DNA from: Caulobacter sp. 73W
Lineage (GTDB): Bacteria > Pseudomonadota > Alphaproteobacteria > Caulobacterales > Caulobacteraceae
Length of the DNA stretch: 64,000 bases
Reading direction: 5' to 3'
NCBI RefSeq assembly: GCF_041021955.1
Contig: NZ_CP158375.1
Coordinates: 434,001-498,000, forward strand
Shown: positions 5,365 to 62,979 of the stretch, piece after piece
Position numbering within the stretch: position 1 is the stretch's first letter
Layout of the letters: every line of letters begins with the position of its first letter
Notes under the pieces: model-generated
What the model saw: only the letters and a program-made list of their open reading frames with translations
The model's database searches: none
What the model was told of the DNA's origin: nothing
Translations under genes and position numbers: made by a program

Positions 5365-6465
5365 CTACTTCTCCACCACTGTCCGCTTTGGATGGACGCA
5401 AAGCGGCAGGACCAAGGTCGCTACGAAGCCGACGCCGGGCTCAACCTTGACGTCCACGCGGCCATGCCGGCCAAAGCGCGCGGCCAGCCGTCGGCGGATA
5501 TTCTCCATTCCCGTTCCTTCTCGGACCACGCCGTCGGCGGAAGGGCCGTCATCCTGAACCTTGAGGAACAGCACGTCATCCTCGCTCCACGCGCTGATAG
5601 CGATCAGGGTTTCGCGCTCGGGGTCGTTGACGCCGTGCTTGACGGCGTTCTCGATGATCGGCTGCAGGATCAGGCTCGGGACCTGGGCTGATAGAAGCTC
5701 GGCCGGAATATCGACCTCCACCTTCAGCGCCTCGAAGCGCACGCGCTCGATATCGAGATACAGGCGTTGAAGCGCGACCTCCTCTTCGAGGCGGACATCC
5801 TGCAGCGGGTCCTTGGCCAGGGCGCCGCGGAAAAAGGCTGCGAGGCGCACCACCATCTGGTCAGCCGCAGTATTCCGGCGGTCGAGGATCAGCGCCGAGA
5901 TGGCGTTCAGCGTGTTGTACAAAAAGTGCGGATTGATCTGGTAGTGCAGCGCGCGGATCTCAGCCTCGCGCGCTGTGATTAGGGCGCTGGCCAGCTGACG
6001 CTCCCGACGCTGGGCGACCCGCTCGGACTCGAAAGTCGCGACAATGGCGACCCACAGGACGAACCAGCTGGAAAAGTAAATCGTGTCCCAGACCGTCCGC
6101 ACCCAAGAGGTCTTCTTCAACTCCGGCATCATGACCGGCGTGTAGAGTTCGACGAACCGGAGGGCGCTGGAATAGGCCATGGCGAAGACCACGACGGTCA
6201 CGAACGTCGTCGCCCACAGCAGCCATCGTGATCCGCGCGACGCCCATCGCACCGCGCGCCACTGGAGGATGTTGAGGATCGCGCCGATCGCGACCACCGG
6301 AATCTCCCCCAGCCAATACTCACGAGCCAGGGGCATGCCGTTGAGGTAGTTGAGGGCGTTGGCCCAAACCTCGATCGCCAGCCAGTAGCCGATCGCCAGC
6401 GCCGGCATAACGAGCCAGTCGCGGCGACGTGCGGCCCCGCTTGCAACGAAATCTTCCGTGGTCAT
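5365..6465 (-). CDS. LytS-type sensor histidine kinase
   Basis: 366 residues. Four predicted membrane segments (roughly residues 17-41, 50-68, 81-101 and 127-145) form the N-terminal sensor. The cytoplasmic part starts with the His_kinase family motif INPHFLYNTLNAIS, placing the phospho-acceptor at His180, and ends with an HATPase region (IIENAVKHGV as N box, GTGMENIRRRL as G box). This is the kinase class that pairs with LytTR regulators, and such a regulator gene (6666-7466) lies divergently 200 bases away. The signal sensed cannot be read from the sequence. Confidence 0.9.
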   Translation of the reverse strand: MTTEDFVASGAARRRDWLVMPALAIGYWLAIEVWANALNYLNGMPLAREYWLGEIPVVAIGAILNILQWRAVRWASRGSRWLLWATTFVTVVVFAMAYSSALRFVELYTPVMMPELKKTSWVRTVWDTIYFSSWFVLWVAIVATFESERVAQRRERQLASALITAREAEIRALHYQINPHFLYNTLNAISALILDRRNTAADQMVVRLAAFFRGALAKDPLQDVRLEEEVALQRLYLDIERVRFEALKVEVDIPAELLSAQVPSLILQPIIENAVKHGVNDPERETLIAISAWSEDDVLFLKVQDDGPSADGVVREGTGMENIRRRLAARFGRHGRVDVKVEPGVGFVATLVLPLCVHPKRTVVEK

Positions 6466-6665
6466 GCTTTCGTCGCGCGATTTGGTCTGTTCGTGACGCT
6501 ACAGATGTCTCTGGATGGCCGGGCGGCGTGGGTTTTGCGACGAACGGACGAACTGGTCGATGAACGCGAATGGACTTGCGTGGGACGGCCGTCAGATTTC
6601 AACGAGTGTTTCAGGCACAGGCTTAAGGTCGGGCGAGGAGTCCGACACAACAGTTTGGAAGACAT

Positions 6666-7466
6666 ATGCTTTCTGTGATCGCGGTCGATGACGAGGCCCT
6701 GGCGCTGCGCCGGCTCGAGATTGCGATTTCGCAGATGCCCGATGCGTCGTTGATCGGTAAGGCGCGCAGCGGCCGCGAGGGGCTGGAGCTGATCCGGCAG
6801 CTGCGCCCCGATGTCGTGCTGCTGGACATCCAGATGTCCAGCTTCGGCGGCTTCGACCTGGTGGACAGCCTGGCTCCCAACGAAGTTCCGTTGATCATCT
6901 TCGTGACCGCGTTCGAAAGCTTCGCGGCCCGCGCCTTCGAGGTGAGCGCCGTGGACTATGTCCTCAAGCCGGTCGAATTCGACCGCCTCAGCGCCGCCCT
7001 CACCCGCGCCCGCCGCAACCTGCATCTGGCGACGTCCGAGCAACGGGCCTCGGAGTTGCGCGAGGTCGTCGCCCGGCTGCGGGGGCGCAACGAGGCCGAG
7101 GCGGAGCCGGACGAGAAGTACGCGAAGGAGTTCTGGGCGCAGCGTCGCGGCGACTTCGTCCGGGTGCCCGTTGATCAGTTGGATTGGGTCGAGGCGGAAC
7201 GCGACTATGTCCGCCTGCACGCGCGTGGACATTCCTACATGCTGCGGGGCACGCTCGCGACCATGGAATCCCGCCTCGATCCGGATGTCTTTGTCCGCAT
7301 CCGCCGTTCCGCCCTTATCCGCGCCGACCGCATCGAGGCGATCCGCAAGCCGAACTACGGCGACTATCGCGTGGTCCTGACCTCCGGCCGGGAGCTGCGC
7401 GTGGGCAAGACCTACCTCCGCGCCATCCGCGGCCTGATGGCGACGACCGCCGGCCTGCGCGCCTGA
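6666..7466 (+). CDS. LytTR-family DNA-binding response regulator
   Basis: 266 residues. The receiver domain occupies about residues 1-120, with acidic residues Asp8 and Asp9 and probable phospho-acceptor Asp54 in VLLDIQM; the conserved Lys is in DYVLKPVEF. The C-terminal LytTR domain, about residues 155-262, has the family pattern (VPVDQLDWVEAERDYVRLHA, then VRIRRSALIRADRI), which binds DNA through beta-strands instead of a helix-turn-helix. GGAAG lies just upstream of the ATG. Its partner kinase is divergent at 5365-6465. Targets are unknown. Confidence 0.92.
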   Translation: MLSVIAVDDEALALRRLEIAISQMPDASLIGKARSGREGLELIRQLRPDVVLLDIQMSSFGGFDLVDSLAPNEVPLIIFVTAFESFAARAFEVSAVDYVLKPVEFDRLSAALTRARRNLHLATSEQRASELREVVARLRGRNEAEAEPDEKYAKEFWAQRRGDFVRVPVDQLDWVEAERDYVRLHARGHSYMLRGTLATMESRLDPDVFVRIRRSALIRADRIEAIRKPNYGDYRVVLTSGRELRVGKTYLRAIRGLMATTAGLRA

Positions 7467-7840
7467 CCGGCGCGTCTGTTGTTCGTGCATCCGTCGGGCC
7501 CCATCCCTTGGACAACTGGAGCCCGAAGGTGAGCGCGATCTGAAGCCGAGGCGTCGGATTTTCGACGAACGACGATCATCGAGCGACCAACAGCCTGGAG
7601 CGGCTGAAGGCTTAGGCGGCCCAAGGTGATAGTTTGCAAGCGAACAAAAGCGGCCACGCTTGTTTCCAACTCAACTCCGGATATCGACGTGCAGATTGTC
7701 CACGACAAACCCGCCGCCATCATACAGGAGATGCGGCGACGCTCTCTTCGATGGAGCAGGCGGCGAAGCGTGATCTTCCTCCTGGGGATGTCGGCGTTGT
7801 TCTGGCTATCGCTGCTGATCACCATCAGCTGTGCGCGCCA
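7467..7840. other. 374-base stretch with at most one small membrane-protein gene
   Basis: Between the LytTR regulator and the VOC remnant I see no clear terminator or promoter. The only coding candidate is the short open frame ending at 7844, listed separately. Confidence 0.5.
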
Positions 7841-7844
7841 CTAG
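7626..7844 (+). CDS. possible small membrane protein
   Basis: An open frame of 72 codons if the GTG at 7626 is used, or 37 if the ATG at 7731 is used. The C-terminal half is basic (RRRSLRWSRRRS) followed by one hydrophobic segment (VIFLLGMSALFWLSLLITI), an inside-positive single-span layout. AGGAG touches the ATG at 7731 with no spacer, so neither start has a convincing ribosome site. I recognise no family. Its stop codon overlaps the stop of the VOC remnant on the other strand. It may be a real small protein or a chance frame. Confidence 0.35.
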   Translation: MIVCKRTKAATLVSNSTPDIDVQIVHDKPAAIIQEMRRRSLRWSRRRSVIFLLGMSALFWLSLLITISCARH

Positions 7845-8150
7845 GCATGAACATCCTCAGGCGCTGGTCGATACCAGGTCAATTCCAGTCTCAGCCCGTC
7901 GGTGTCCGTCAGAAAGACGCTCAACGCATCTCCGAAATCCTGGATCGCGGGCGCGGTGAGTCCAGCGGCGGCATAGCCCTGCAGGATGTCTTCGAACGTC
8001 TGCTGCGACGGCGCACTGAACGTGAAGTGGTTTAGGCCCGGACCGCCCCGCGCGTACGACCTCGGCGCGGGCGAAGGGATCCTCGTCCGGCGTGTTCAGC
8101 CGCGTGCCCGACCAGCCCGCCGCCCGCAAGGAGGTCTCGATCTCAGCCTG
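7841..8150 (-). pseudogene. VOC (glyoxalase-fold) protein with broken frame
   Basis: The C-terminal part reads in one frame as GLNHFTFSAPSQQTFED, then ALSVFLTDTDGLRLELTWYRP, stopping at 7841-7843. This is the pattern of a vicinal-oxygen-chelate domain (metalloenzymes such as glyoxalases and extradiol dioxygenases, or antibiotic-binding proteins). The matching upstream part (SLRAAGWSGTRLNTPDEDPF) lies in another frame, and the change occurs near 8040-8060. No convincing start codon is visible. It is divergent from a MarR regulator that is also broken. A sequencing indel or true decay would both explain this. Confidence 0.55.
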
Positions 8151-8166
8151 AGCGGTGAGGGGCGTG

Positions 8167-8599
8167 ATGAACGTGCCGAACGCCGCAGCGGCCAGAACCC
8201 GCTTTACAAGCTCAGAGCTCCCGTCGCTCAGCAGCTGCGGAAGCAGGCTGACGAGGCCGGCATGGCGGCGGCGGGGGTCAGCGCCGCGCAGGGCGCGGCC
8301 CTGTTCGCGATCGAACGGTCCCCGGGGCTTTCTCAGCGCGAGGTGGCCAAGGCCAGCAGCAGGAGTTGGCGGTCACCACCATGGTGTCGCGCCTGTTGGC
8401 GGCGGAGCTGATCACCCGCACGCCGCGCAGCGACGATCCGCGGACCCTGTCGCTGGATCTCACCGACAAAGGACGCAGCGCCCTCGTCCGCCTGCGCGCC
8501 GAACTCGATGCGATCAATCGCACGATCGAGGAGACGCTGGCTCCAGGCGAGATGGAAATGCTCTGCCCCGTTCTGGAACGGCTGGCCGCGAACAACTAG
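8167..8599 (+). pseudogene. MarR-family transcriptional regulator with broken frame
   Basis: The pieces join into a typical MarR winged-helix repressor. NPLYKLRAPVAQQLRKQ and GAALFAIERSPGLSQREVAKA are in one frame; AVTTMVSRLLAAELITRTPR, DDPRTLSLDLTDKG and the dimerisation helix to 8599 follow in the next. The shift falls near 8351-8360, at the repeated CAG stretch, where one base seems missing before CAGCAGCAGGAG. The best start (ATG at 8167, with AGGGG upstream) is in a third frame, so a second shift near 8190 is possible. MarR proteins usually repress a divergent neighbour in response to phenolic ligands; here that neighbour is the VOC gene. Confidence 0.6.
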
Positions 8600-8671
8600 G
8601 CCGCCCCGGACCAACTCCGGCGCGGCGAAAATACGGGGAGCCGCGCCTCACGACGCGCGGCTCCCGTCAAA

Positions 8672-9238
8672 CTAGGCGAGCACCACCACAACGACGCGGC
8701 GGTTCTGGGCGCGGCCCTCACGGTTATCGTTCGGCGCCACCGGCGCTTCGGCGCCGTAGGAGATCGAGGCCATCCGGTTCAGCGGCACGCCGCTCTTGTT
8801 CAGGAACTTGCGGACGGCTTCAGCACGGGCTTCGCCCAGCTTCTCGTTATAGTCCTCGGCGCCCGTGGCGTCGGTGTGGCCCTGGATTTCCAGATAGACG
8901 TTCTTGTTGTCAGCCTTAAGCTTTTCAGCGAACTCTGCCAGACGGGATTCCGCCTCGGGCGACAAGGCCGCCTTGTCGACCGGGAACTTCACGCTGTCGT
9001 CGGACAGGACCATCGAATAGACGAACTTGCCTTCCGCCAGCTTGCCGGCGGCGGTGGCCCGCTGCAGGGCTTCGCGGGACGTGCGGTCGAGTTCGGCGAT
9101 CTGGCCGTCATGCGCCGAGACGCGGGTCTCGACCTGACCGACCTGGGTGTTCACGTACTTCTTGGTGGCGCAACCGCTGACCGCGACAGCGCCGGCAAGC
9201 ATCGCCACGGCGATCATGCCCTTCGATTTGAGCTGCAT
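8672..9238 (-). CDS. OmpA-family outer-membrane lipoprotein
   Basis: 188 residues from the ATG at 9236-9238, chosen because GGGAGAAG lies 6 bases upstream and it starts a lipoprotein signal with lipobox VSGC (Cys23). Residues about 24-60 look like a short coiled coil (KKYVNTQVGQVETRV). The C-terminal half is an OmpA/Pal peptidoglycan-binding domain (LEIQGHTDATGAEDYNEKLG, then ISYGAEAPVAPNDNREGRAQNRRV), which contacts meso-diaminopimelate. Likely role: tethering the outer membrane to peptidoglycan. Monocistronic. It is not the pal gene of a tol cluster, as no tol gene is nearby. Confidence 0.88.
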   Translation of the reverse strand: MQLKSKGMIAVAMLAGAVAVSGCATKKYVNTQVGQVETRVSAHDGQIAELDRTSREALQRATAAGKLAEGKFVYSMVLSDDSVKFPVDKAALSPEAESRLAEFAEKLKADNKNVYLEIQGHTDATGAEDYNEKLGEARAEAVRKFLNKSGVPLNRMASISYGAEAPVAPNDNREGRAQNRRVVVVVLA

Positions 9239-9669
9239 CGAATTCTTCTCCCAGTTTTCGAGCTTGGGAGCTGGCCGTGTACTGCGACAGGCCGAGCTTC
9301 CAACATCTCGATCCCGACAGTGCAAAACGGCGCTTTAGTGGCGACTTGTTGGCGAGAGCCGCACCTAGACAGCAAATATCGACCAAATTTACAGTCACGC
9401 TTGGAGGAGACTTCGCGCGAACGCCACAGCGTCTTTGGTGTTCCCTGGATAATGCGATTTTCTTCTCGCACCACCTCGTCGCCAAGACGAAAACTTAGAC
9501 TATCCCCTATCACCTACATGTCGGCGCGCACGCTGGTCTCACCCTGAAAGAGCTCAAAAAGGTCGCAGATGCTCCAATCGCTTGCGGCGCAAGGCTCGGC
9601 TTGTTATTGCAAATCGTTCTCATAAAGCCGCGCGTCACTCGGCGCTCCTAGGACCAGCCCTCTTTCGCG
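9239..9669. other. 431-base intergenic region between divergent genes
   Basis: It should hold the promoters of the OmpA-family gene (minus strand) and the PepSY operon (plus strand). The one specific element I can point to is the Fur-box-like sequence at 9606-9624. I find no credible coding frame: the open frames here have no ribosome site and no protein-like composition. Confidence 0.6.
9606..9624. promoter_or_regulatory. candidate Fur box upstream of the PepSY/ApbE operon
   Basis: ATTGCAAATCGTTCTCATA agrees at 14 of 19 positions with the palindromic Fur consensus AATGAGAATCATTCTCATT (counted by eye). It lies 46 bases before the first start codon of the operon, a suitable place for an iron-responsive repressor. 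Confidence 0.5.
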
Positions 9670-10302
9670 ATGAGCCAAGCCAAGACCTCCAGCCAAAGCC
9701 GTTCCTTTTGGCTCAAGCATCTGCACAACTGGCACTGGATCAGTTCGGCCATTTGCCTGGTCGGCATGATTCTGTTCGCGGCCACGGGCATCACCCTGAA
9801 TCACGCCGCTCTGATCGAGGCCAAGCCGAAGGTTACCGTCAAGGAAGCGGTGCTGCCGGACGACATGATCGCCGCGCTGGCGGTCAATGCGCCCGCCGAG
9901 AAAGGTCCGCTGCAGGCGCCTGTCGCCAAGTGGATCGGCAAGACCATGAAGGTCGACGTGACGGGACGCGAAGGCGAATGGTCGGAGGACGAGGTCTATG
10001 TCGCCCTGGCCCGCCCCGGAGGAGACGCCTGGATCAGCGTCGACCGGGTCACCGGCGACATCTCCTATGAGAAGACCACGCGCGGCGTGGTCAGCTACCT
10101 GAACGACCTGCACAAGGGCCGCAACACCGGCCCGGCGTGGATGTGGTTCCTCGACGTCTTCGCGGTCGCCTGCCTCGTCTTCTGCATCACCGGTCTTTGC
10201 CTGCTGCAGATGCACGCCGGGGCGCGGCCCAGCACCTGGCCGATGGTGGGACTTGGGATCGTCATCCCCCTGCTCCTCGTCATCCTGTTCATTCATTCCT
10301 GA
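9670..10302 (+). CDS. PepSY-associated transmembrane protein
   Basis: 210 residues. An N-terminal membrane helix (residues about 22-42, with HNWHWISSAICLVGMILFAATGI) precedes a soluble periplasmic PepSY-like region (ISVDRVTGDISYEKTTRG). Two further helices follow near the C-terminus (about 157-177 and 190-208). His residues at the membrane edges fit haem-binding PepSY proteins that move electrons across the inner membrane. First gene of a five-gene run; the next begins 14 bases after its stop. With ApbE and a flavodoxin-type reductase downstream, it probably forms part of a ferric or flavin redox chain. The exact role is inference. Confidence 0.8.
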   Translation: MSQAKTSSQSRSFWLKHLHNWHWISSAICLVGMILFAATGITLNHAALIEAKPKVTVKEAVLPDDMIAALAVNAPAEKGPLQAPVAKWIGKTMKVDVTGREGEWSEDEVYVALARPGGDAWISVDRVTGDISYEKTTRGVVSYLNDLHKGRNTGPAWMWFLDVFAVACLVFCITGLCLLQMHAGARPSTWPMVGLGIVIPLLLVILFIHS

Positions 10303-10316
10303 CGGAGTACTCGCCC

Positions 10317-10832
10317 ATGCGGAAAGCCCTGCCCGCCCTGGCTCTTGGGAGCCTCGCCGCCACTCCGGCCCTGGCGGCCGACCTGAACGTGACGGTGGAG
10401 ATCCCCCGCCTGTCGGTGGCCGAGTATCACCGCCCTTACGTCGCGATCTGGCTGGAGCGCCCCGACCAGACCGCCGTCGGCACCTTCGCGGTCTGGTACG
10501 ACACCAAGCTGAAGAACAACGAAGGCGAAAAGTGGCTGAAGGATATCCGCCAATGGTGGCGTCGAGCTGGCCGTGAAATGAGCTTCCCGGTCGATGGCGT
10601 CACCACCCCGACCCGCGCGCCCGGCCGCCACACCATCAACTTCAATAGCGCCAAGGGGCCTCTGAAGGGCCTTCCGGCCGGCGAGTACATGCTGGTCGTG
10701 GAAGCCGCCCGTGAAGTCGGCGGCCGCGAACTGGTCAAGGTTCCGGTCCAGTGGCCGCCCAAGGCCGCCAAGACCACCAGCGCCAAGGGCGCGACCGAGC
10801 TGGGCGCCGTCACCGTCGTCGCCAAACCCTAA
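10317..10832 (+). CDS. DUF2271 periplasmic protein with altered flavinylation motif
   Basis: 171 residues with a signal peptide (MRKALPALALGSLAATPALAA). The rest matches the DUF2271 pattern: YHRPYVAIWLERPD, FAVWYDTKLKNNEGEKWLKD, then PVDGVTTPTRAPGRHTI. As I remember the family, this last site usually reads D-x-V-T-G-A-T and is the kind of motif to which ApbE attaches FMN. Here Asp93 and Thr99 remain, but the central Gly-Ala is Thr-Pro. The gene sits between the PepSY gene and DUF4198, with ApbE two genes downstream. Export fits a periplasmic redox carrier; whether it is flavinylated is open. Confidence 0.8.
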   Translation: MRKALPALALGSLAATPALAADLNVTVEIPRLSVAEYHRPYVAIWLERPDQTAVGTFAVWYDTKLKNNEGEKWLKDIRQWWRRAGREMSFPVDGVTTPTRAPGRHTINFNSAKGPLKGLPAGEYMLVVEAAREVGGRELVKVPVQWPPKAAKTTSAKGATELGAVTVVAKP

Positions 10833-10845
10833 GGGAGCCGAGACC

Positions 10846-11643
10846 ATGAAGAACACCCTGCGCCTGGCGCTGACCGCCGCGATCATCGCCGCCGCCCCGA
10901 TGGCGGCCCACGCTCACCGCATGTGGATGCTGCCGTCGGCCACCGTGCTGTCGGGCAATGACCCGTGGCTCACCGTGGACGCGGCCGTGTCCAACGACCT
11001 GTTCTACTTCGAGCACCAGCCGATGCGCCTGGACGGTGTAAAGGCCTTCGCGCCGGACGGCACTGAAGCCAAGATCGAGAACGCCTCGACCGGCCGCTAT
11101 CGCTCGACCTTCGACGTCCATCTGACCCAGAACGGCACCTACAAGGTGACCACCGGCGGCGACATGCTGAGCGGCTCCTACAAGGTCGGTACGGAAACCA
11201 AGCGCTGGCGCGGCGTGCAGCCGGAAATCCCGGCCGGCGCGACGGATGTGAAGGTCAGCCAGAACCAGCGCCGCCTGGAAATCTTCGTGACCAAGGGCGC
11301 GCCGACCACCACCGTCCTGGCTCCGACGGGCAAGGGCCTGGAACTGGTTCCGGTCACCCACCCTAACGACCTGTTCGCGGGCGAGGAAGCCACCTTCAAG
11401 CTGCTGCTGGACGGCAAGCCGGCCGGCGACGTGGAAGTCGAAGTGGTCCCGGGCGGCATCCGCTATCGCGACAACCTCAACGACTTCAAGGTGAAGACGA
11501 CCGCCGACGGCTCGTTCAAGGTGAAGTGGCCCGAAGCCGGCATGTACTGGCTGGAGGCCGGTGTTCGCGGCGGCGCGGCCTCCGTGCCGAACGCCGAACG
11601 CTCGGCGACCTACATCACCGTCCTCGAAGTCCTGAAGCCCTAA
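10846..11643 (+). CDS. DUF4198 periplasmic protein
   Basis: 265 residues with a signal peptide cut after MAAHA, followed at once by the His-containing start typical of DUF4198 (HRMWMLPSATVLSG), a family tied to metal uptake (nickel, cobalt, iron). A C-terminal beta-sandwich region follows (GKGLELVPVTHPNDLFAGEEA, then AGMYWLEAGVRGG). The N-terminal His may bind metal. It starts 13 bases after the DUF2271 gene and ends 46 bases before the chosen apbE start. A paralogue lies at 29999-30805 beside a TonB receptor, strengthening the metal link. Substrate not determinable. Confidence 0.85.
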   Translation: MKNTLRLALTAAIIAAAPMAAHAHRMWMLPSATVLSGNDPWLTVDAAVSNDLFYFEHQPMRLDGVKAFAPDGTEAKIENASTGRYRSTFDVHLTQNGTYKVTTGGDMLSGSYKVGTETKRWRGVQPEIPAGATDVKVSQNQRRLEIFVTKGAPTTTVLAPTGKGLELVPVTHPNDLFAGEEATFKLLLDGKPAGDVEVEVVPGGIRYRDNLNDFKVKTTADGSFKVKWPEAGMYWLEAGVRGGAASVPNAERSATYITVLEVLKP

Positions 11644-11689
11644 GGTGAAAGCCGGCGACGGCCCGTCCGTCGCCGGTTCATCCTCCCCG

Positions 11690-12682
11690 ATGAACCGTGT
11701 CCTTGTTCCTCAGATCGCCGTCGCGCCTTTGCGGCCGGCGGGTTCGCTGCTCAGTCTGGGCGGCGAGACGATGGGCACGACCTGGTCCGTGAAGCTGGTC
11801 GATGGCGGCGTCGCCTCCCGCGCGGAGATCGACGCCCTGATCACCGAACGGCTGGATCAGGTGATCGCCGAAATGAGCACCTGGGATCACGGATCCCTGG
11901 TCAGCCGCTTCAACGTCGCCGAGAGCTGCTCCTGGCACGCCATGCCGACGGCCTTCGCCAGGGTTCTGGCCTGCGCGCTGGACGTGGCCGAGGCCAGCGC
12001 AGGCGCCTTCGACCCCACCGTGGGCGGCGCCGTGGACCTGTGGGGCTTTGGTCCCAAGGTGGTGGCCGAGGCCCTGCCCTCCCCCGCTGAATGCCAGGAA
12101 GCCGTCGCCTCGATCGGCTGGCGGCGCGTTGTCATCGACGCTCTAGGCCGGCTGCAGCAGCCCGGCGGCCTGCGGCTGGACTTCTCCGGCATCGCCAAGG
12201 GCTTCGCGGTGGATCACATCGCCGACGGCCTCAAGGACCTCGGCGTTCCCTCCGCCCTGATCGAGATCGGCGGCGAGATCTTTGGCTATGGCGTCAAGCC
12301 GGACGCCCAACCTTGGTGGATCGAGCTGGAGAACGCCACCGAGGTCGAGGGCGGCCGGTTCGTGGTCGCGGCTTGCAATCTGGCCGCCGCGACATCGGGC
12401 GACTGGCGGCGGCGCTTCCGTCACGCCGGCGCCTGGTACGGCCACACGCTCGACCCGCGCACCGGCCGCCCGGTCATCGACCCCGCCGCCTCCGTCACGG
12501 TCCTGCACGACAGCTGCATGCGGGCCGACGCCGAAGCCACCGCCATAACCGTCCTCGGCGTCGAGGCCGGCCTCGACTACGCCGAACGCCGAGGTCTGGC
12601 GGCCGTGATCGTGGCCCGCTCGGCGTCCGGCTACGATGAACACATGACATCCGCCTTCGCGGCCATGCTCGACGATGAGTGA
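11690..12682 (+). CDS. apbE: ApbE-family FAD:protein FMN transferase
   Basis: 330 residues from the ATG at 11690; a GTG at 11645 is also open, and neither has a clear ribosome site. ApbE transfers FMN from FAD to a Thr or Ser of exported redox proteins. Seen: GGETMGTTWSVKL at the start of the fold, AFDPTVGGAVDLWGFG, LRLDFSGIAKGFAVD, IEIGGEIFGYG, and the C-terminal HTLDPRTGRPV and DAEATAITVLG, all typical ApbE blocks. No signal peptide is visible, so the enzyme may act in the cytoplasm or use an unrecognised start. Its stop overlaps the next start by 8 bases. Confidence 0.9.
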   Translation: MNRVLVPQIAVAPLRPAGSLLSLGGETMGTTWSVKLVDGGVASRAEIDALITERLDQVIAEMSTWDHGSLVSRFNVAESCSWHAMPTAFARVLACALDVAEASAGAFDPTVGGAVDLWGFGPKVVAEALPSPAECQEAVASIGWRRVVIDALGRLQQPGGLRLDFSGIAKGFAVDHIADGLKDLGVPSALIEIGGEIFGYGVKPDAQPWWIELENATEVEGGRFVVAACNLAAATSGDWRRRFRHAGAWYGHTLDPRTGRPVIDPAASVTVLHDSCMRADAEATAITVLGVEAGLDYAERRGLAAVIVARSASGYDEHMTSAFAAMLDDE

Positions 12683-14063
12683 TCTGCCCGCCCTGACTTC
12701 GGAACGCCTGCTGTGGGCGACCGCCGCCATCCTGGCCTATGTGCTGTTCTGCGTCGGCGTCGCCGTGCGTCGCGCCCTGCTGCGCCGTCGCGCGCGGCGG
12801 GAGGCGGACGCCCTGGCCGGCGGCGGCGAAGCGGTGCTGGTCGTCTACGCCAGCCAGACGGGCTTCGCCGAAGACCTGGCCTGGACCACCGCCAAGGCCC
12901 TCCAGATGGGCGAGGTCGGCGCCCGGGTCCTGTCCATCAGCGACCTGACCGCCGAAGACCTGGCCGGCGCCAAGCGCGCCCTGTTCGTGGCCAGCACCAC
13001 CGGCGAGGGCGACGCGCCCGATCCGGCCGCCCGCTTCGTCGGCCGGGTGATGAAGGCGCAGCCTGATCTGAGCGGCCTCAGCTACGGCTTGCTGTCCCTG
13101 GGCGACAGCTCCTACGTCCAGTTCTGCGCCTTCGGCCGTCATCTGGACGCCTGGCTGACCGAGCGCGGCGCCGCGCCGCTGTTCGACCGGGTGGAGGTCG
13201 ATGACGGCGACGAAGGCGCCCTACGCCACTGGCAGCACCAGCTCAGCGCCATCAGCGGCGTCACCGACGCGCCCGACTGGAGCCGTCCGGCCTATGAGAG
13301 CTGGCGCCTGGCAGAGCGTCGCCTGCTCAATCCGGGCAGCCAGGGCGGCGAAGCCTGGCATGTGGCGCTGGAGCCCGTCGAGGGGACCGCCGTCTGGGCG
13401 GCCGGCGACATCGTGGAGATCGGCCCCCGCCGTGGTCCGGACGAGCCGGCGGACGCCCCCGCCCCGCCCCATCGCGAGTATTCCATCGCCTCGGTCCCGC
13501 TGGATGGCCGCATCGAGCTGATCGTCCGCACCATGACCCGGCCCGACGGCGGCTTCGGCGTCGGATCGGGCTGGCTGACCAAGCATGCGAAGGTCGGCGG
13601 CGACATCGACCTGCGGATCCGCGCCAACCGCGCCTTCCACGCGCCGGAGCCCTCGCGCCCGCTGATCCTGATTGGCGCGGGCACCGGTCTGGCGGGCCTG
13701 CGGGCCCACCTGAAGGCCCGGGCCGCGGCTGGGGCCAACCGCAACTGGCTGGTGTTCGGCGAGCGCAGCGCCGCCCGGGACTATTTCCACCAGGCCGAGA
13801 TCGACGCCTGGATCGCCGGCGGCGTGCTGGAACGCATCAGCCTCGCCTTCTCGCGCGATCAGGCGGACCGGATCTATGTCCAGCATCGCCTGGCCGAGGC
13901 GGCGGACGACCTGCGGCTATGGGTGTCCCAGGGCGCGGCGATCTATGTCTGCGGAGGGATCGAGATGGGCAAGGCGGTCGGCGCGGCCCTGACCGACATC
14001 CTCGGCGCTCAGACCATGGCCGAGCTGACAGAAGACGGCCTTTATCGCCGGGACGTGTACTAA
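12675..14063 (+). CDS. membrane-anchored flavodoxin/ferredoxin-reductase-type flavoprotein (CysJ-like)
   Basis: 462 residues. One N-terminal membrane helix (about residues 12-32) anchors a flavodoxin domain (VVYASQTGFAEDLA for the FMN phosphate, ASTTGEGDAPDP, LGDSSYVQFC). An FAD/NADPH reductase unit follows (REYSIASVPLDG for FAD, LILIGAGTGLAGLRAH and IYVCGGIEMGKAV for NADPH). This is the layout of the sulfite reductase flavoprotein and cytochrome P450 reductase families. It should move electrons from NADPH through FAD and FMN to a membrane partner, here probably the PepSY protein of the same operon. The start overlaps the end of apbE, so the two are translationally coupled. Confidence 0.88.
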   Translation: MSDLPALTSERLLWATAAILAYVLFCVGVAVRRALLRRRARREADALAGGGEAVLVVYASQTGFAEDLAWTTAKALQMGEVGARVLSISDLTAEDLAGAKRALFVASTTGEGDAPDPAARFVGRVMKAQPDLSGLSYGLLSLGDSSYVQFCAFGRHLDAWLTERGAAPLFDRVEVDDGDEGALRHWQHQLSAISGVTDAPDWSRPAYESWRLAERRLLNPGSQGGEAWHVALEPVEGTAVWAAGDIVEIGPRRGPDEPADAPAPPHREYSIASVPLDGRIELIVRTMTRPDGGFGVGSGWLTKHAKVGGDIDLRIRANRAFHAPEPSRPLILIGAGTGLAGLRAHLKARAAAGANRNWLVFGERSAARDYFHQAEIDAWIAGGVLERISLAFSRDQADRIYVQHRLAEAADDLRLWVSQGAAIYVCGGIEMGKAVGAALTDILGAQTMAELTEDGLYRRDVY

Positions 14064-14066
14064 CGG

Positions 14067-14588
14067 CTACTCGTCATCCACGTGGACCTTGCGGAAGCGG
14101 CCCTGCAGATAGACCAGCGGCTCATGCGCGGGGTCGAAGCGGACGCGCAGGATCTCGCCCACGATCACCCGGTGGTCCCCGGCGTCGAAGGCCTGGCTGA
14201 TCCGGCACTCGAAGTTGGCCATGCAGTCGTCGATGATCGGCGCGCCCGTGCCCCAGGTCTCCAGGCCCACCCCGGCGAAGCGATCGTCGTCGCGCTGCAC
14301 GAACTGGCGGGCCAGGGCCTGCTGATCGGCGTGCAGCACATTCACGACGAAGGCGCCGCTGGCCTCCAGCCCCTGCAGGCTGAAGGAGTTCAGATCGACG
14401 CAGATCAAGGCCAGCGGCGGATCCAGCGAGACGGAGGCGAAGGAGTTGACAGTGAAGCCCAGCTTGCGCCCTTCCGGGCACAAGGCCGTAACGACCGTCA
14501 CCCCAGTGGTGAAACAGCCGAACGCATCACGAAGCGCCCGCGCATTGGCGAGGGCGTCCTGGTCAAGCTCGACACGGGTTCCGCTCAT
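14067..14588 (-). CDS. flavin reductase domain (NAD(P)H:FMN oxidoreductase) protein
   Basis: 173 residues, the usual size for the short flavin reductases that supply reduced FMN or FAD to two-component monooxygenases. The split-barrel flavin site is seen in FTTGVTVVTAL, GFTVNSFASVSLDPPLALIC, FVVNVL and GDHRVIVGEI. No monooxygenase gene is adjacent, so the partner is unknown. It converges with the flavoprotein reductase gene (3-base gap) and may serve general flavin reduction. Confidence 0.88.
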   Translation of the reverse strand: MSGTRVELDQDALANARALRDAFGCFTTGVTVVTALCPEGRKLGFTVNSFASVSLDPPLALICVDLNSFSLQGLEASGAFVVNVLHADQQALARQFVQRDDDRFAGVGLETWGTGAPIIDDCMANFECRISQAFDAGDHRVIVGEILRVRFDPAHEPLVYLQGRFRKVHVDDE

Positions 14589-58152: not shown

Positions 58153-58715
58153 GCCTCGCCGCCCCTCGCCAGGGTCAGGACGTGATCGCGAAGGTCGACG
58201 GGCCAGGAGCCCAGCTCCGCCTCCAGCTTGCCCAGGTCGCCGGCGAACAGCGCCCGGCTGCCCTCCTCGAACCCCGGCAGGTCGCCGCCGAGCGCGGACA
58301 TGATGCGATAGGCCGCCTCGTGCGCACGGCGATCCTGACCGTCGCCCGCGGCCCGCGCCGCTTCGACCAGTCGCCGCAATGCGACCGAGGCGCCGCCCGG
58401 CTGCTCGGCCAGCCATTCCCAGTGACGGGGCAGCAGCGTGACCTCACGCGCCACCACGCCCAGCTTCGGACGCCCCCTGCCCCGGTGCGGCTCGGGTTCG
58501 GCATAGCGTTGCCGGACGTCCTCCTCATCACCGCGCAGCTCGATGTCGACCAGACGCCCCGAACGATCGAAGGTCAGCACGGTCTGGTTCGGATCGACCT
58601 TCAGCGCCCGCCAGACCGCGACGGCGACATCGGCCAAGGGGCCAGTCGCCACCCGACGCTGGCCGGCGAAGGCGGTGCAGATCTTTGGCTTGTCAGGAGA
58701 AGTCGCGTTGCTCAT
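58149..58715 (-). CDS. DUF2239-family protein
   Basis: 188 residues. The block GRGRPKLGVVAREVTLLPRHWEWLAEQPGGAS, in pieces, is the part I associate with DUF2239, found in many proteobacteria and actinobacteria without known function. The N-terminal part (CTAFAGQRRVATGPLADVAVAVWRAL) precedes it. No signal peptide or membrane segment. Translationally coupled to the GIY-YIG-like gene, and 52 bases from the end of the octapeptide-repeat gene. Confidence 0.8.
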   Translation of the reverse strand: MSNATSPDKPKICTAFAGQRRVATGPLADVAVAVWRALKVDPNQTVLTFDRSGRLVDIELRGDEEDVRQRYAEPEPHRGRGRPKLGVVAREVTLLPRHWEWLAEQPGGASVALRRLVEAARAAGDGQDRRAHEAAYRIMSALGGDLPGFEEGSRALFAGDLGKLEAELGSWPVDLRDHVLTLARGGEA

Positions 58716-58767
58716 GCGCGACTTTTACCCGGGCGAAATATCCGCTGTCAATATCTCCCGGGTAATA

Positions 58768-61700
58768 TCACCCGAAGAACGGATTGATCCCGATCGCCTC
58801 CAGCTGCGCCGGGCTCATGCACTCGTTCAGCTGATAGGCGGTGAACTTGTTGACCTGGGCGTTGGTCATGGAGCCCAGCTGATGCGTGCTCATCTGCTGG
58901 AGCTGCTCCTTGGTCAGCCCCGGAATCTGGGCCGGCATCAGGTAGCCGATCTGGGTCGTGCTGAACTGCCCCATCACGGTCGGCGAGAGCTGGCCGATCT
59001 GGGTCGGGGTCAGCGCCTTCATCTGGGACGGCGAGAAGCCGCCGATGTCGGCGATGTCGAAGGCTCCCAGCTGAACGCCGGACAGCCCCGCCATCTGGTC
59101 GCTGCTCAACTTGCCGATCTGCGAGGTGCTGAACGCGCCGATCGCCGTATTGGAGAAGGCGGCGATCTGCGTCGCCGAGAAGGCGCCGATCTGGGTGATG
59201 CTGAGCTCGCCCACATCCTCAGGGGTGAAGCCGCGGATCTGGGCCGCCGAGAGGCTGGAGATCTGGCCGCCGGACAGGGCCGCCACCTGGGTCGCCGTCA
59301 GGGCCGAAATCTCTTCCGCCGAGAAGGACGCCAATTGCGAGCCGCTCAGACCGGAAATCTGGGTGCTCGTGAACTCCGCCATGTCGGCGACGGTCAGTGC
59401 TTCCAGCTGCGAGGCCGACAACCCCTGGATCTGGGCTTGAGACAGGGCGCCGAAGCGGGTGGCGTCCATGCCCACGACGTTCGCGGCGGACAGCGCCCCG
59501 ATCTGGGCGGCAGAGAACATCCCCACCTGGCCGCTCGTCAGGGCGTTGAAGTGCGTGGCGCTGAGGCTGCCGATATGCGTCGTCGTCAGGCCAGCGATCT
59601 GGGAGTTGTCCAGCGACGCCACTTGGGTCGACGTCATGGCCGCGAAGGCGTTGGCGGAGATCCCGCTGATCTGCGACGGGGTCAGGGCGTCGAGCTCAGT
59701 GATCGACAACCCGGCGATCAGCGTATCCGACAGCCCGCCGAACTGCGTCCCGGTCAACTGGCCGAGGCGGTTGCGGATGTGCCCGCTTTCCAGCGCCTGC
59801 ACCTGGCTGGTGGAAAGGCCGCGGATCTGGGTGGACGACAGAGCGGCGAACTCGGTGCTCGTCATCTCCCGCAGGTTGGTCGCATCGACCGACCCCAGCT
59901 GCGTGGGGCTGAGCGCCGACAGCTGGGTGATGGTGAACTCCTCGAAATCGGCCAGGGACAGGCTGGCGATCTGGGTCGTGCTCAGCCCGCCGATCTGCGC
60001 GGTCGACAGCACGGCCACCTGCGTCGCCGTCAGGGCCGACAGAGCCGTGGCGTTGAGGGCCCCGATCTGGCTGTTCAGCAGCGCGGCGATCTGGGTCCCC
60101 GGCATTCCGCTGACCTGGGTCGCGGTCATCGCGCCGACCTGGGTGGTCGTCAGGCCCGTGAGCTGCGTCTTGGTCAGGCGGGTGATCTGAGTGACGTCCA
60201 GACTGGCGATCGCGGTCGTGGAGAAGCCGCCGACCTGGCTGGCCGACAGCGACGCGACCTGGGCGGCGTTGAACTCCAGCACGTCCTCGGGGCTGAGGCC
60301 GCCGATCTGGGTGGTCGTCAGCCCCTTCATCTGGGTGGTGGTCAGGGTGGCGATCTGCGTCGCGTCCAGCTCCGCGATTGCGGCGGACGACAGAGCGCTG
60401 AGCTGGGTGGCCGTGAGCGAGGCGATCTGGGTCGTGGTCAACGCCCCAATGGCGGTCTCGCCCATCGCCGCCAACTGAGTGGTCGTGAGGCCCTTTACCT
60501 GAGTAACCGAAAGCGCCGCGACCGCGGTGGGCGAAAGGCCGGAGATATTGGTCGCCGAGAACGCGGCCATCTGAGTGGGCGTGAAGGCGGCGAGCTGCGT
60601 GGCGGTGAACTCGCCGAAATCCTCGACGCTCAGACTCTTGAGCTGCGTCGCCGTCAGGCCGCCGACCTGCGAGGTCGTCAGCATCGCCACCTGAGTGGCG
60701 TTCAGACTGGCGAAGGCGGTGGTCGATAGCGCCGCGACCTGAGAGGGCGTCAAGGCGGCGAGTTGCTCGTCGGACAACTGCCGGAAGGCGTCGGCGTTCA
60801 AGGCCGCGAGCTGGGTCGGCGTCAGAGCGTTGAACTGCGTCACGCTCAACGCGTCGATATCGGTCTTGTCGAAAAGGGCCAGTTGCGTGGCCGTCAGGGC
60901 ACGGACCTGTGTCGTGCCCAGCGCCGCCAGTTGGGAAGCGTCGAAGTCCGAGACCCCCGTGACGGAAAGAGCCGAGATCTGCGCTGCCGACATCGCGGCG
61001 ATCTGGGTGGTCGTGAAGGAGGTGACGTCGTCCCGATCGAAACCCTTCATCTGGGTCGCCGTCAGGCCGCGAATCTGGGTGACGGTGAGGCCCGACAGCT
61101 CCTCGGGCGTCAATGATCCGATGTTGGTGGCCGACAGGGCCGCCAACTGCGCGCTGGTGAAGGCCGCGATCTGCTCGGAGTCGAACTCCGCGAAATCGTC
61201 CTCGCTCAAGCTGCGGAGCTGGGCGACGGAAATGGCTCGGACCTGGGTGGCGGACAGCGAGGCGACCTGCGCCGCGGTCAGCTCGGCCAGGGCGGATGTG
61301 GACAGGCCCGCGATCTGGCTTGGAGTCAGGTCGGCGATCTGATCGCTGTCGAACAAGGGCGTCAGAACCCCGACCTGAGCGCCGCTGAGCGCCGCCATCT
61401 GGGTGCTGGTGAACTCCCCGATGTCCGCCGCGTCCAACCCGCGGAGCTGGGTGGTGGTGAGCGCCTTGAGCTGGCTCGCCGACAGCACCTCCACCTGGGC
61501 CTGGTTGAGCGCCGAAATCGCGGTGGGCGAAAGCTGGGCGATCTGCGACGGCGCCAGAGCCGCGATCTGGGTCGGCGTAAGGGCGGCGATGCCGCTGACG
61601 TCAATGTCCTTCAGCTGGTTGGCGCTCAACGCCTTTAGTTGGGTGGTGGTCAGAGGGGCGGTGCTGCTGAGGACCGCCAGCCCCTCCGGGGTCAGGGCGT

Positions 61701-62979
61701 TGATCTGAAGCCCCGTCATCACGTTGATCTGTTCGGCGGTGAACTCGCCCAGATCCTCGATCGTCAGCCCCTTCATCTGCGACGCACTGAGCGCGCGAAT
61801 CTGGGTCGTGGTCAGGGATGCGATGTCTTCCTCAGATAAGTCCGACAGGGCCGTGACCGAAATCTGCATGATCTGCGCCGTGGTCAGGGCCCGCAGCTGC
61901 GTGATGTTGAATTTCTCGAAGTCGGCCACATCCATCGACTTGATGTGAGGGATGCCGAGCCGGCCGATCTGGGTCACCGTCAGGCCGGCGATCTGATCCT
62001 CGGTCAGGCTACGGAACTGAGTGGTGGTGAGCGCCCCGAATTGAGAAGGATTGAGGCTGGAGATCTGGTCAGCCGAAAAACTCTTGAAGGCCTCCTCGGA
62101 CAGTCCAGAAATCTGAGCCATCGAAAGGGCTCCGATCTGGGTCGAACTGAAGCGCGCGAGCATCGTCGGCTCGATCACGCCCATCTGAGCGACCGTCAGC
62201 CCCTTCATCTGGGTCACGTTCAGCGCCGCCAGCTGACCTTCGCTGAAGGAGCTGAAGAGTTCCGGCGTCAGGCTTCTGATCTGCGCGGCGGACAGCTGCT
62301 GAATCTGCGTGGCTGTGAATTCGGCGATGTCGTCGACCCCCAGCGCATTGAGTTGCGTGGCGGTGAGGGTCTTGAGCTGGGTTTCGTTCAGGCCGGCGAT
62401 CTGCTCGGCGCTCATGGCCGAAAGACCCGCGCCAGTCAGCCCGCGAAGCTGAGTGGCCCCGAGCTGGCTCACCTGTTCAGCGGAAAACTCGCTGATGTCG
62501 TCCTCCGACAGCCCCTTCATCTGTGAGGCGGCGATGGATCGAAGCTGCGTCGCGGACAGCGCGGCGATCTGTTCGCGTGTGAGAGCGGAAAAGCCCGTTT
62601 CCGTGAAGGCGCTGATCTGCGCGCCCTTGAGCCCCGCGATCGCGCCTACGTCGACGGACGCGATCTGATTTTCCGTCAGCGCCCGGATCTGGCTCTGGTT
62701 TAAAACCGCGAGCTGCCCCGGACTGAAGGTGATGCCCGTGGCAAGACGCGGAATCTGGATGCGCGTCAGCGCCTTCACCTGCTGAGGCGACAGAGTGGCG
62801 AACTGCTCCGCGCTGACGGCTTCGATCGCGCTGCTGTTGATCGCCGCGATCTGGGACGGCGTCAGCAGCTTGAACTCCGACGGCGGCAGCTCCTGGAAGA
62901 ATCCGGGCCCCAACGCGGCGATCTGGCCCGGCGTCAGCCTGTTGATCGGCGGAGTGTTCGAAACCGACGAAATGGTCAT
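58768..62979 (-). CDS. giant octapeptide-repeat protein of unknown function
   Basis: 1403 residues. After a 14-residue head the chain is 168 octads of the form [LF][ST]xxQ[ILV]x[AG] (for example LTTTQIAA, FSATQIAA), interrupted by only four short segments of 6, 6, 12 and 4 residues at 79-84, 437-442, 539-550 and 1071-1074. A 17-residue tail (CMSPAQLEAIGINPFFG) ends it; 14+1344+28+17 gives exactly 1403. I see no tryptophan and a single cysteine (Cys1387). No signal peptide, membrane segment, RTX motif or anchor is visible. The ATG has no strong ribosome site (AGG at about -16). No secretion gene is nearby. I do not recognise a family and assign no function. Confidence 0.85.
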   Translation of the reverse strand: MTISSVSNTPPINRLTPGQIAALGPGFFQELPPSEFKLLTPSQIAAINSSAIEAVSAEQFATLSPQQVKALTRIQIPRLATGITFSPGQLAVLNQSQIRALTENQIASVDVGAIAGLKGAQISAFTETGFSALTREQIAALSATQLRSIAASQMKGLSEDDISEFSAEQVSQLGATQLRGLTGAGLSAMSAEQIAGLNETQLKTLTATQLNALGVDDIAEFTATQIQQLSAAQIRSLTPELFSSFSEGQLAALNVTQMKGLTVAQMGVIEPTMLARFSSTQIGALSMAQISGLSEEAFKSFSADQISSLNPSQFGALTTTQFRSLTEDQIAGLTVTQIGRLGIPHIKSMDVADFEKFNITQLRALTTAQIMQISVTALSDLSEEDIASLTTTQIRALSASQMKGLTIEDLGEFTAEQINVMTGLQINALTPEGLAVLSSTAPLTTTQLKALSANQLKDIDVSGIAALTPTQIAALAPSQIAQLSPTAISALNQAQVEVLSASQLKALTTTQLRGLDAADIGEFTSTQMAALSGAQVGVLTPLFDSDQIADLTPSQIAGLSTSALAELTAAQVASLSATQVRAISVAQLRSLSEDDFAEFDSEQIAAFTSAQLAALSATNIGSLTPEELSGLTVTQIRGLTATQMKGFDRDDVTSFTTTQIAAMSAAQISALSVTGVSDFDASQLAALGTTQVRALTATQLALFDKTDIDALSVTQFNALTPTQLAALNADAFRQLSDEQLAALTPSQVAALSTTAFASLNATQVAMLTTSQVGGLTATQLKSLSVEDFGEFTATQLAAFTPTQMAAFSATNISGLSPTAVAALSVTQVKGLTTTQLAAMGETAIGALTTTQIASLTATQLSALSSAAIAELDATQIATLTTTQMKGLTTTQIGGLSPEDVLEFNAAQVASLSASQVGGFSTTAIASLDVTQITRLTKTQLTGLTTTQVGAMTATQVSGMPGTQIAALLNSQIGALNATALSALTATQVAVLSTAQIGGLSTTQIASLSLADFEEFTITQLSALSPTQLGSVDATNLREMTSTEFAALSSTQIRGLSTSQVQALESGHIRNRLGQLTGTQFGGLSDTLIAGLSITELDALTPSQISGISANAFAAMTSTQVASLDNSQIAGLTTTHIGSLSATHFNALTSGQVGMFSAAQIGALSAANVVGMDATRFGALSQAQIQGLSASQLEALTVADMAEFTSTQISGLSGSQLASFSAEEISALTATQVAALSGGQISSLSAAQIRGFTPEDVGELSITQIGAFSATQIAAFSNTAIGAFSTSQIGKLSSDQMAGLSGVQLGAFDIADIGGFSPSQMKALTPTQIGQLSPTVMGQFSTTQIGYLMPAQIPGLTKEQLQQMSTHQLGSMTNAQVNKFTAYQLNECMSPAQLEAIGINPFFG
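58822..62937 (-). repeat. 24-base coding repeat array (168 units)
   Basis: DNA encoding the octads of the giant protein, units of 24 bases, with four phase breaks. Units are similar in protein but vary in codons, so the array is old or under amino-acid selection instead of being a fresh expansion. Seven units (168 bases) form a higher-order period. Confidence 0.8.

Follow-up and report, generated by a model that had tools for sequence, protein, structure and literature searches.

The octad gene and its repeat array

The stretch of DNA analysed here, referred to as the window, comprises 64,000 nucleotides of Caulobacter sp. 73W (C1:434001-498000 of its 4.0-Mb single-contig genome). At 58768..62979 on the minus strand it carries a coding sequence with an ATG start, encoding a protein of 1403 amino acids built of octapeptide (octad) repeats of the ALTTAQ type. 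It was recognised from the list of open reading frames, the match to Pfam family PF20080, the segmentation of the repeats and the ratio of non-synonymous to synonymous substitution rates (dN/dS). The genome holds three octad genes: the window gene (A), B (2280 amino acids; L019:7902-14744) and C (approximately 1127 amino acids; L020:8236-11619). Proteins of the A-type are called window-type below.

Our dynamic-programming segmentation placed 172 octads and left residues 1-6, 79-84, 437-442, 539-542, 1071-1074 and 1387 unassigned. An initial annotation made from the sequence alone had counted 168 octads with breaks of 6, 6, 12 and 4 residues, and the two parses agree save at the ends and at one doubtful octad. 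The N-terminal element (residues 1-93; 62701..62979, minus strand), delimited by segmentation and a break motif, consists of nine octads, a conserved phase break of six residues (79-84, LATGIT; 62728..62745) and FSPGQLAVL. Segmentation located the remaining breaks on the same strand at residues 437-442 (six residues, LSSTAP; 61654..61671), 539-542 (LTPL; 61354..61365; the break counted as 12 residues initially) and 1071-1074 (four residues, RLGQ; 59758..59769). Past the last regular octad there is a C-terminal cap (residues 1387-1403, CMSPAQLEAIGINPFFG; 58771..58821, minus strand), placed by segmentation and modelled with low confidence (mean predicted local distance difference test score, pLDDT, of 60 in the last block).

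The 8-residue spacing is strict: residue identity at lag 8 reaches 0.254, whereas 200 shuffles averaged 0.09 and never exceeded 0.105. The exact motif [LF][ST]xxQ[ILV]x[AG] occurs in 45 copies, while 1000 shuffles gave a mean of 0.26 and at most 2. The description of the octads as near-perfect was generous, since only 45/172 satisfy all five constrained positions, although 107/172 satisfy at least four. The protein contains no Trp and a single Cys, as noted initially, and has an isoelectric point (pI) of 4.33. No signal peptide or membrane anchor was seen on inspection by eye, and a consensus scan gave no promoter-like or terminator-like sites.

Two orthologues, in C. segnis strain FS (L017) and in an uncultured Caulobacter (L018), encode the entire protein, with best-segment identities of 89% and 87% and a length difference of one residue at most. 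The dN/dS of the window gene was 0.136 against L017 (dN 0.069, dS 0.505; 1402 codons) and 0.113 against L018 (dN 0.079, dS 0.706; 1403 codons), and G+C at the three codon positions was 0.58/0.50/0.89. By these measures the window gene is a real, selected coding frame, and the long, strictly spaced coding array claimed initially is borne out. An antisense open frame of 728 amino acids lies opposite the octad gene (window 58543-60729, plus strand) and is a trap for annotation; the repeat itself probably gives rise to the plus-strand frames that overlap the gene.

Family membership and distribution

The Pfam model PF20080 (ALTTAQ_rpt) matched the window protein over its whole length with 498.6 bits (E 1.5e-153) in 51 stretches, passing the curated cut-off of 26.4 bits, and the 8-residue register is common to model and protein. 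The window protein is an additional member of this already described family. The model covers a 38-residue stretch; the superhelical period, the N-terminal break element and the links to GT41 glycosyltransferases and type I secretion reported below lie outside it. The initial annotation knew of no named family, which the Pfam match corrects, and had set a described repeat family with known function as the finding that would count against it. The family is indeed described, but a function for PF20080 or the ALTTAQ repeat did not turn up in the open-access literature searched, which likewise held nothing on an octapeptide repeat in Caulobacter. NCBIfam gave no match up to E 1. The other Pfam matches (CAAP1, LRR_EndoS, Sigma70_r4_2 etc.) were rejected as composition artefacts of the repeat. 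A phage origin was also rejected: the look-alikes were PHROG 15773 (E 2e-9) and, in BFVD, a phage protein with 39% over 107 columns (E 1.4e-3), and a tblastn search of residues 1-993 against 50,697 phage records returned no match.

With the own genome counted, PF20080 is present in 26/61 genomes of the genus (E <=1e-3), in 52/299 of the family, representing 8/22 genera (E <=1e-7), and in 6/385 genomes sampled from the class and 21/398 from the phylum (both E <=1e-6). A match was also found in the named C. vibrioides control genome, which gave a GT41 match as well, and tblastn located the repeat on 57/72,556 plasmids, chiefly of Rhizobium, Shinella and Cereibacter. Open frames that carry the repeat, from 1100 residues to more than 5000 in length, occur across many proteobacterial genomes, and strict 8-residue spacing over more than a thousand residues, which had been considered rare, is not unique to the window protein. 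At L078, L085, L086, L098, L129 and L153 the array is split over several frames, owing to assembly error, decay or frameshifting. Most other arrays whose pI was computed are acidic (pI 4-5; 8.4 for L075), yet those of family f197 (L109, L110, L112) are extremely basic (pI 10.7-10.9) and still show the 3.43-octad period described below.

Predicted fold and likeness to a solved helical screw

AlphaFold2 was run on residues 1-540 and 860-1403 with alignments of three rows each (the window protein, L017 and L018). Mean pLDDT was 85.9 and 86.5, respectively, with a predicted template modelling score (pTM) of 0.62. In these predictions from three-row alignments nearly every octad forms a short helix, mostly of 4-6 residues, followed by a turn, so that the structure prediction suggested initially points to one helix per octad. 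Residues 1-8 have pLDDT below 50, and the helix pattern is broken at the phase breaks. Taken by themselves, the coding status, the membership in PF20080 and the predicted single helix per octad are held with high confidence.

Among solved chains, 9zem ('HeliScrew4') was the best match both with phmmer (E 3.7e-16; next a leucine-rich repeat (LRR) receptor, 1.2e-5) and in a profile search (E 3.1e-15; next match 0.0037). In the reverse direction, the aligned letters of 9zem scored 99.3 bits against PF20080 (E 8.7e-29; cut-off 26.4). When L110 was the query, an LRR receptor came first (1.4e-11) and 9zem second (1.8e-10); LRR receptors among the PDB sequence matches were set aside as composition artefacts of the repeat. 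A 2025 preprint describes an X-ray-confirmed 'tightly wound alpha-helical screw' and presents it as a new super-secondary structure that came out of folding random tandem repeats (Yang et al., DeGrado; PMC12822642). Because of the name HeliScrew4, 9zem is probably the design of that preprint. The prediction of one helix per octad for the window protein agrees with this wording. HeliScrew4 is a 120-residue chain of continuous octads (LTPEQIAAL...) and has the octad pattern in common with the window protein. It is, however, apparently designed and holds about 13 octads, whereas the window protein has 172 octads, phase breaks and caps; the likeness is at the level of sequence. The entry 9zem was absent from the best 50 structure-search matches listed (library to 2026-04-08), which is no evidence for a different fold.

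Foldseek and VIA returned mesothelin and armadillo superhelices at middling scores for the window-protein models. Mesothelin is likewise an array of short helices (7ued_M; Foldseek E 3.1e-4, probability 1.00), but its rows at E <=1e-3 have TM-scores of 0.16-0.40, root-mean-square deviations of about 9-13 and identities of 12-16%, and HeliScrew4 matched the Mesothelin model only below that model's cut-off. Armadillo and HEAT solenoids (beta-catenin, importin alpha) have repeats of about 40 residues, and their Z for the window model stayed within the tool's 'common arrangement' range.

A superhelical period in the arrays

Octads of relatives from several families are most similar to one another at lags such as 7, 10, 14, 17, 24, 31, 34, 38 and 48, which are near-integer multiples of 24/7 = 3.43 octads. 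A periodogram was computed on octad positions 3, 4, 7 and 8 of 72 long arrays and compared, in the 0.28-0.305 band, with 100 shuffles of octad order. In this band 53/72 arrays exceeded all 100 shuffles, and 48 of these 53 had 3.40-3.46 octads per turn; the band peak was the highest overall in 32 of them, and another peak was higher in 21. Recent internal duplications strengthen the signal in some relatives, e.g., L101 (identity 0.875 at lag 24).

The relatives supplied a fixed frequency, 7/24, at which the window protein was compared with 400 shuffles. Over all eight octad positions it gave 0.210 against 0.003 +- 0.036, a value reached by 0/400 shuffles; positions 1, 2, 5 and 6 were likewise reached by 0/400, and positions 3, 4, 7 and 8 by 11/400. 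At positions 1, 2, 5 and 6 the result was 0/400 in all 14 window-type proteins, while over all eight positions it was 0/400 in 4/14 and ranged from 1 to 35/400 in the other ten. Judged from sequence, the window protein is a natural octad array of the helical-screw kind with the period written into it, and we read the 24-per-7 period as the twist of the screw recorded in the sequence.

GT41 and exporter genes beside octad genes

Gene B is immediately followed by a GT41 gene (Glyco_transf_41, E 7.1e-79; O-GlcNAc-transferase-like), and no second GT41 was found in the own genome. Neighbours were counted at 85 loci (80 array or array-flank stretches, three own and four plasmid loci, 2/87 being dropped), with 40 stretches out of the same genomes as controls. 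A GT41 gene lay within 6 kb at 42/85 loci against 1/40 controls (Fisher p 3.8e-8). It was present at 34/42 of the other (large) Caulobacteraceae loci and 8/19 of the other-family loci, and at 0/10 of the short C-type loci. The seed proteins came from four counted loci (L019, L075, L076, L078), three of which had prompted the exporter idea; with these left out, GT41 remained at 38/81 loci against 1/40 controls (p 1.0e-7). Since the loci are related, the p-values are only a guide. Nine neighbour genes were checked in Pfam and their assignments fit.

Genes for an ATP-binding cassette (ABC) protein and an HlyD-like protein, at the score cut-offs used, adjoin 10/19 other-family loci, 0/66 Caulobacteraceae loci and 0/40 controls; weaker ABC-type matches occur among both array loci and controls. 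With the seed loci left out, other families retained GT41 at 5/16 and ABC plus HlyD at 7/16. These counts establish that the octad family is genetically associated with GT41 and, beyond the Caulobacteraceae, also with type I exporters.

Within the genus, the GT41 subfamily represented beside B (53-100% identity in the best match) was found in exactly 31/75 Caulobacter genomes, namely those with PF20080 arrays, and in 0/44 others; 14/75 were judged at the E 1e-7 threshold only, and five negatives lay outside the listed matches. More distant GT41-like genes (28-47% identity) also occur in 14 array-free genomes. For the B paralogue and the genus, linkage and co-occurrence with GT41 are thus direct observations. 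In addition, the median Ser+Thr fraction was 0.286 in GT41-linked arrays (n=41) vs 0.2475 in the remainder (n=42), which is weak evidence, given the relatedness of the loci and the pull of the window-type group on one of the two sides. Neither the identity of the fold nor the pitch nor the GT41 association turned up in the open-access literature searched.

Several individual loci deserve mention. Large Caulobacteraceae arrays without a GT41 neighbour (8/42) are L079, L085, L088, L090, L091, L093, L097 and L117, and an ABC-type gene lies near L088, L090, L091 and L097 at low score. In a non-Caulobacteraceae genome (G503), two octad genes flank a GT41 gene (L105:1-4088 and 6236-14443, minus strand). 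With regard to type I secreted giant adhesins of the VCBS/RTX kind, octad relatives resemble them in their ABC/HlyD/TolC neighbours and in one fusion of octads to VCBS and cadherin-like domains, encoded in a 2.0-Mb genome (G441; L100:8558-11989, plus strand). Such adhesins carry VCBS or RTX domains, whereas Pfam and NCBIfam revealed no RTX, VCBS or known C-terminal signal in the window protein. Gene C of the own genome has, at a distance of about 2.4 kb, a gene (L020:3657-5807, plus strand) for an RTX protein whose C-terminal end carries the RsaA N-terminal domain (PF19198, E 3.3e-67); this product may be another anchor protein of the S-layer type.

Does the window copy belong to the same system?

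The window gene has neither a GT41 nor an exporter gene as a neighbour, so we infer glycosylation and export of its product by paralogy. Several observations weigh against placing it in the system of its relatives: GT41 lay within 6 kb of 0/14 window-type loci, cognate ABC/HlyD genes likewise adjoined 0/14, and in the free period search 19/72 arrays failed, all 14 window-type ones included, the value of the window protein itself being reached by 28/100 shuffles. Window-type genes are found in two genomic settings unrelated to each other (4 loci in one, 10 in the other), so that no neighbour there is a likely partner. DUF2239 and YdcZ were considered as operon partners and rejected, being kept beside the gene in only 4/14 loci.

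Support for common membership comes from the N-terminal element. A profile test of shared termini was uninformative (N-terminus best in 19/69, C-terminus in 5/69) because any octad stretch scores, and the phase-break motif was used instead: F...Q[LI] with a Q placed 7 or 14 residues before it, usually in the form QIP..L....F[SD]xxQL near residue 76-90. In its strict form it occurs within the first 140 residues of 50/83 array proteins, window-type, large and short ones alike, while the other 144,278 residues hold just two copies. The count misses L019, where the element is visible by eye, and includes one chance match (L098, residue 3). The motif was not found in the ten arrays that lie next to type I exporter genes, among which the L115 and L078 pieces may be without their N-terminus. 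Furthermore, the C-terminal tail of window-type proteins was matched in 23 genomes (16 at E <=4.8e-9), and the GT41 subfamily is present in 23/23. Regarding export, the own genome encodes an RsaD-like ABC protein with 47% identity to a Pseudomonas exporter; its gene adjoins an HlyD-like gene and genes resembling an O-antigen exporter (names assigned by eye). A peptidase-type ABC protein has no close relative in this genome (best 33%). From paralogy and the common N-terminal element, the window copy may be glycosylated in trans by the single GT41 of B and exported, perhaps via the RsaDE-like system; a surface or adhesive role would follow the same line.

Proposed mechanism and alternatives

In the mechanism that we propose, each octad would form one single-turn helix and a short turn, and successive octads would follow one another in an unbroken alpha-helical screw, each superhelical turn taking about 3.43 octads (27.4 residues). 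At this pitch the 172 octads of the window protein would amount to roughly 50 turns, giving an acidic rod or spring that is long and thin. At the level of the family, the rod would be made in the cytoplasm, its Ser/Thr-rich faces would be O-glycosylated by the GT41 encoded with the largest paralogue, and it would leave the cell through a type I secretion system with no cleaved signal; the resulting glycoprotein, structural or adhesive in role, would be displayed on the cell surface or in the matrix. We lean, with moderate confidence, towards this statement as a whole, in which the protein is a screw-shaped rod that is exported, coated with sugar and placed at the surface or in the matrix. More tentatively, and as a proposal that we would not yet lean on, the 'new' alpha-helical screw of 2025 could be a natural giant-scale fold, used in proteobacterial proteins that range from about 500 to more than 5,000 residues, contain tens to hundreds of octads tuned to 24 octads per 7 turns, and are accompanied by a dedicated cytosolic GT41 and, in several lineages, by a type I exporter; together they would make up an undescribed class of glycosylated surface screws.

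A first alternative is a cytoplasmic scaffold: the screw would remain within the cell and serve as a ruler or as a platform for interactions, in the manner of armadillo or HEAT solenoids, and its modification by GT41 would be regulatory; we consider this rather doubtful. It appears still less probable that the window-type proteins are exported without glycosylation, as diverged partners that no longer use GT41 and simply anchor the same surface layer or form its tip. Such a divergence would fit the missing GT41 neighbour at 14/14 window-type loci, their lower Ser+Thr, their weaker superhelical signature at positions 3, 4, 7 and 8 and their division into two groups at two different genomic locations; however, the GT41 subfamily accompanies the window-type tail in every one of the 23 genomes, and the N-terminal break element is common to window-type and GT41-linked paralogues. 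Finally, a low-complexity or decaying expansion without function is very improbable and was already disfavoured: repeats easily expand and contract and several relatives have arrays split over frames (the six loci listed above), but dN/dS is 0.11-0.14 over 1402 and 1403 codons, the whole frame is retained in L017 and L018 to within one residue, and the superhelical period is present at positions 1, 2, 5 and 6 in 14/14 window-type proteins.

Implications

If the exported, glycosylated screw is the correct reading, three things would come together in one system that can be tested in a genetically tractable organism: a Pfam family for which no function was found, a GT41 subfamily, and a fold known from the crystal structure of an apparently designed protein. 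It would also mean that a fold obtained from random tandem repeats has been widely used by evolution as well. The pitch read from sequence, about 3.43 octads per turn, constitutes a precise structural prediction. The co-occurrence in Caulobacter (31/31 vs 0/44) leads us to propose the octad proteins as a substrate for a bacterial O-GlcNAc-transferase-like enzyme.

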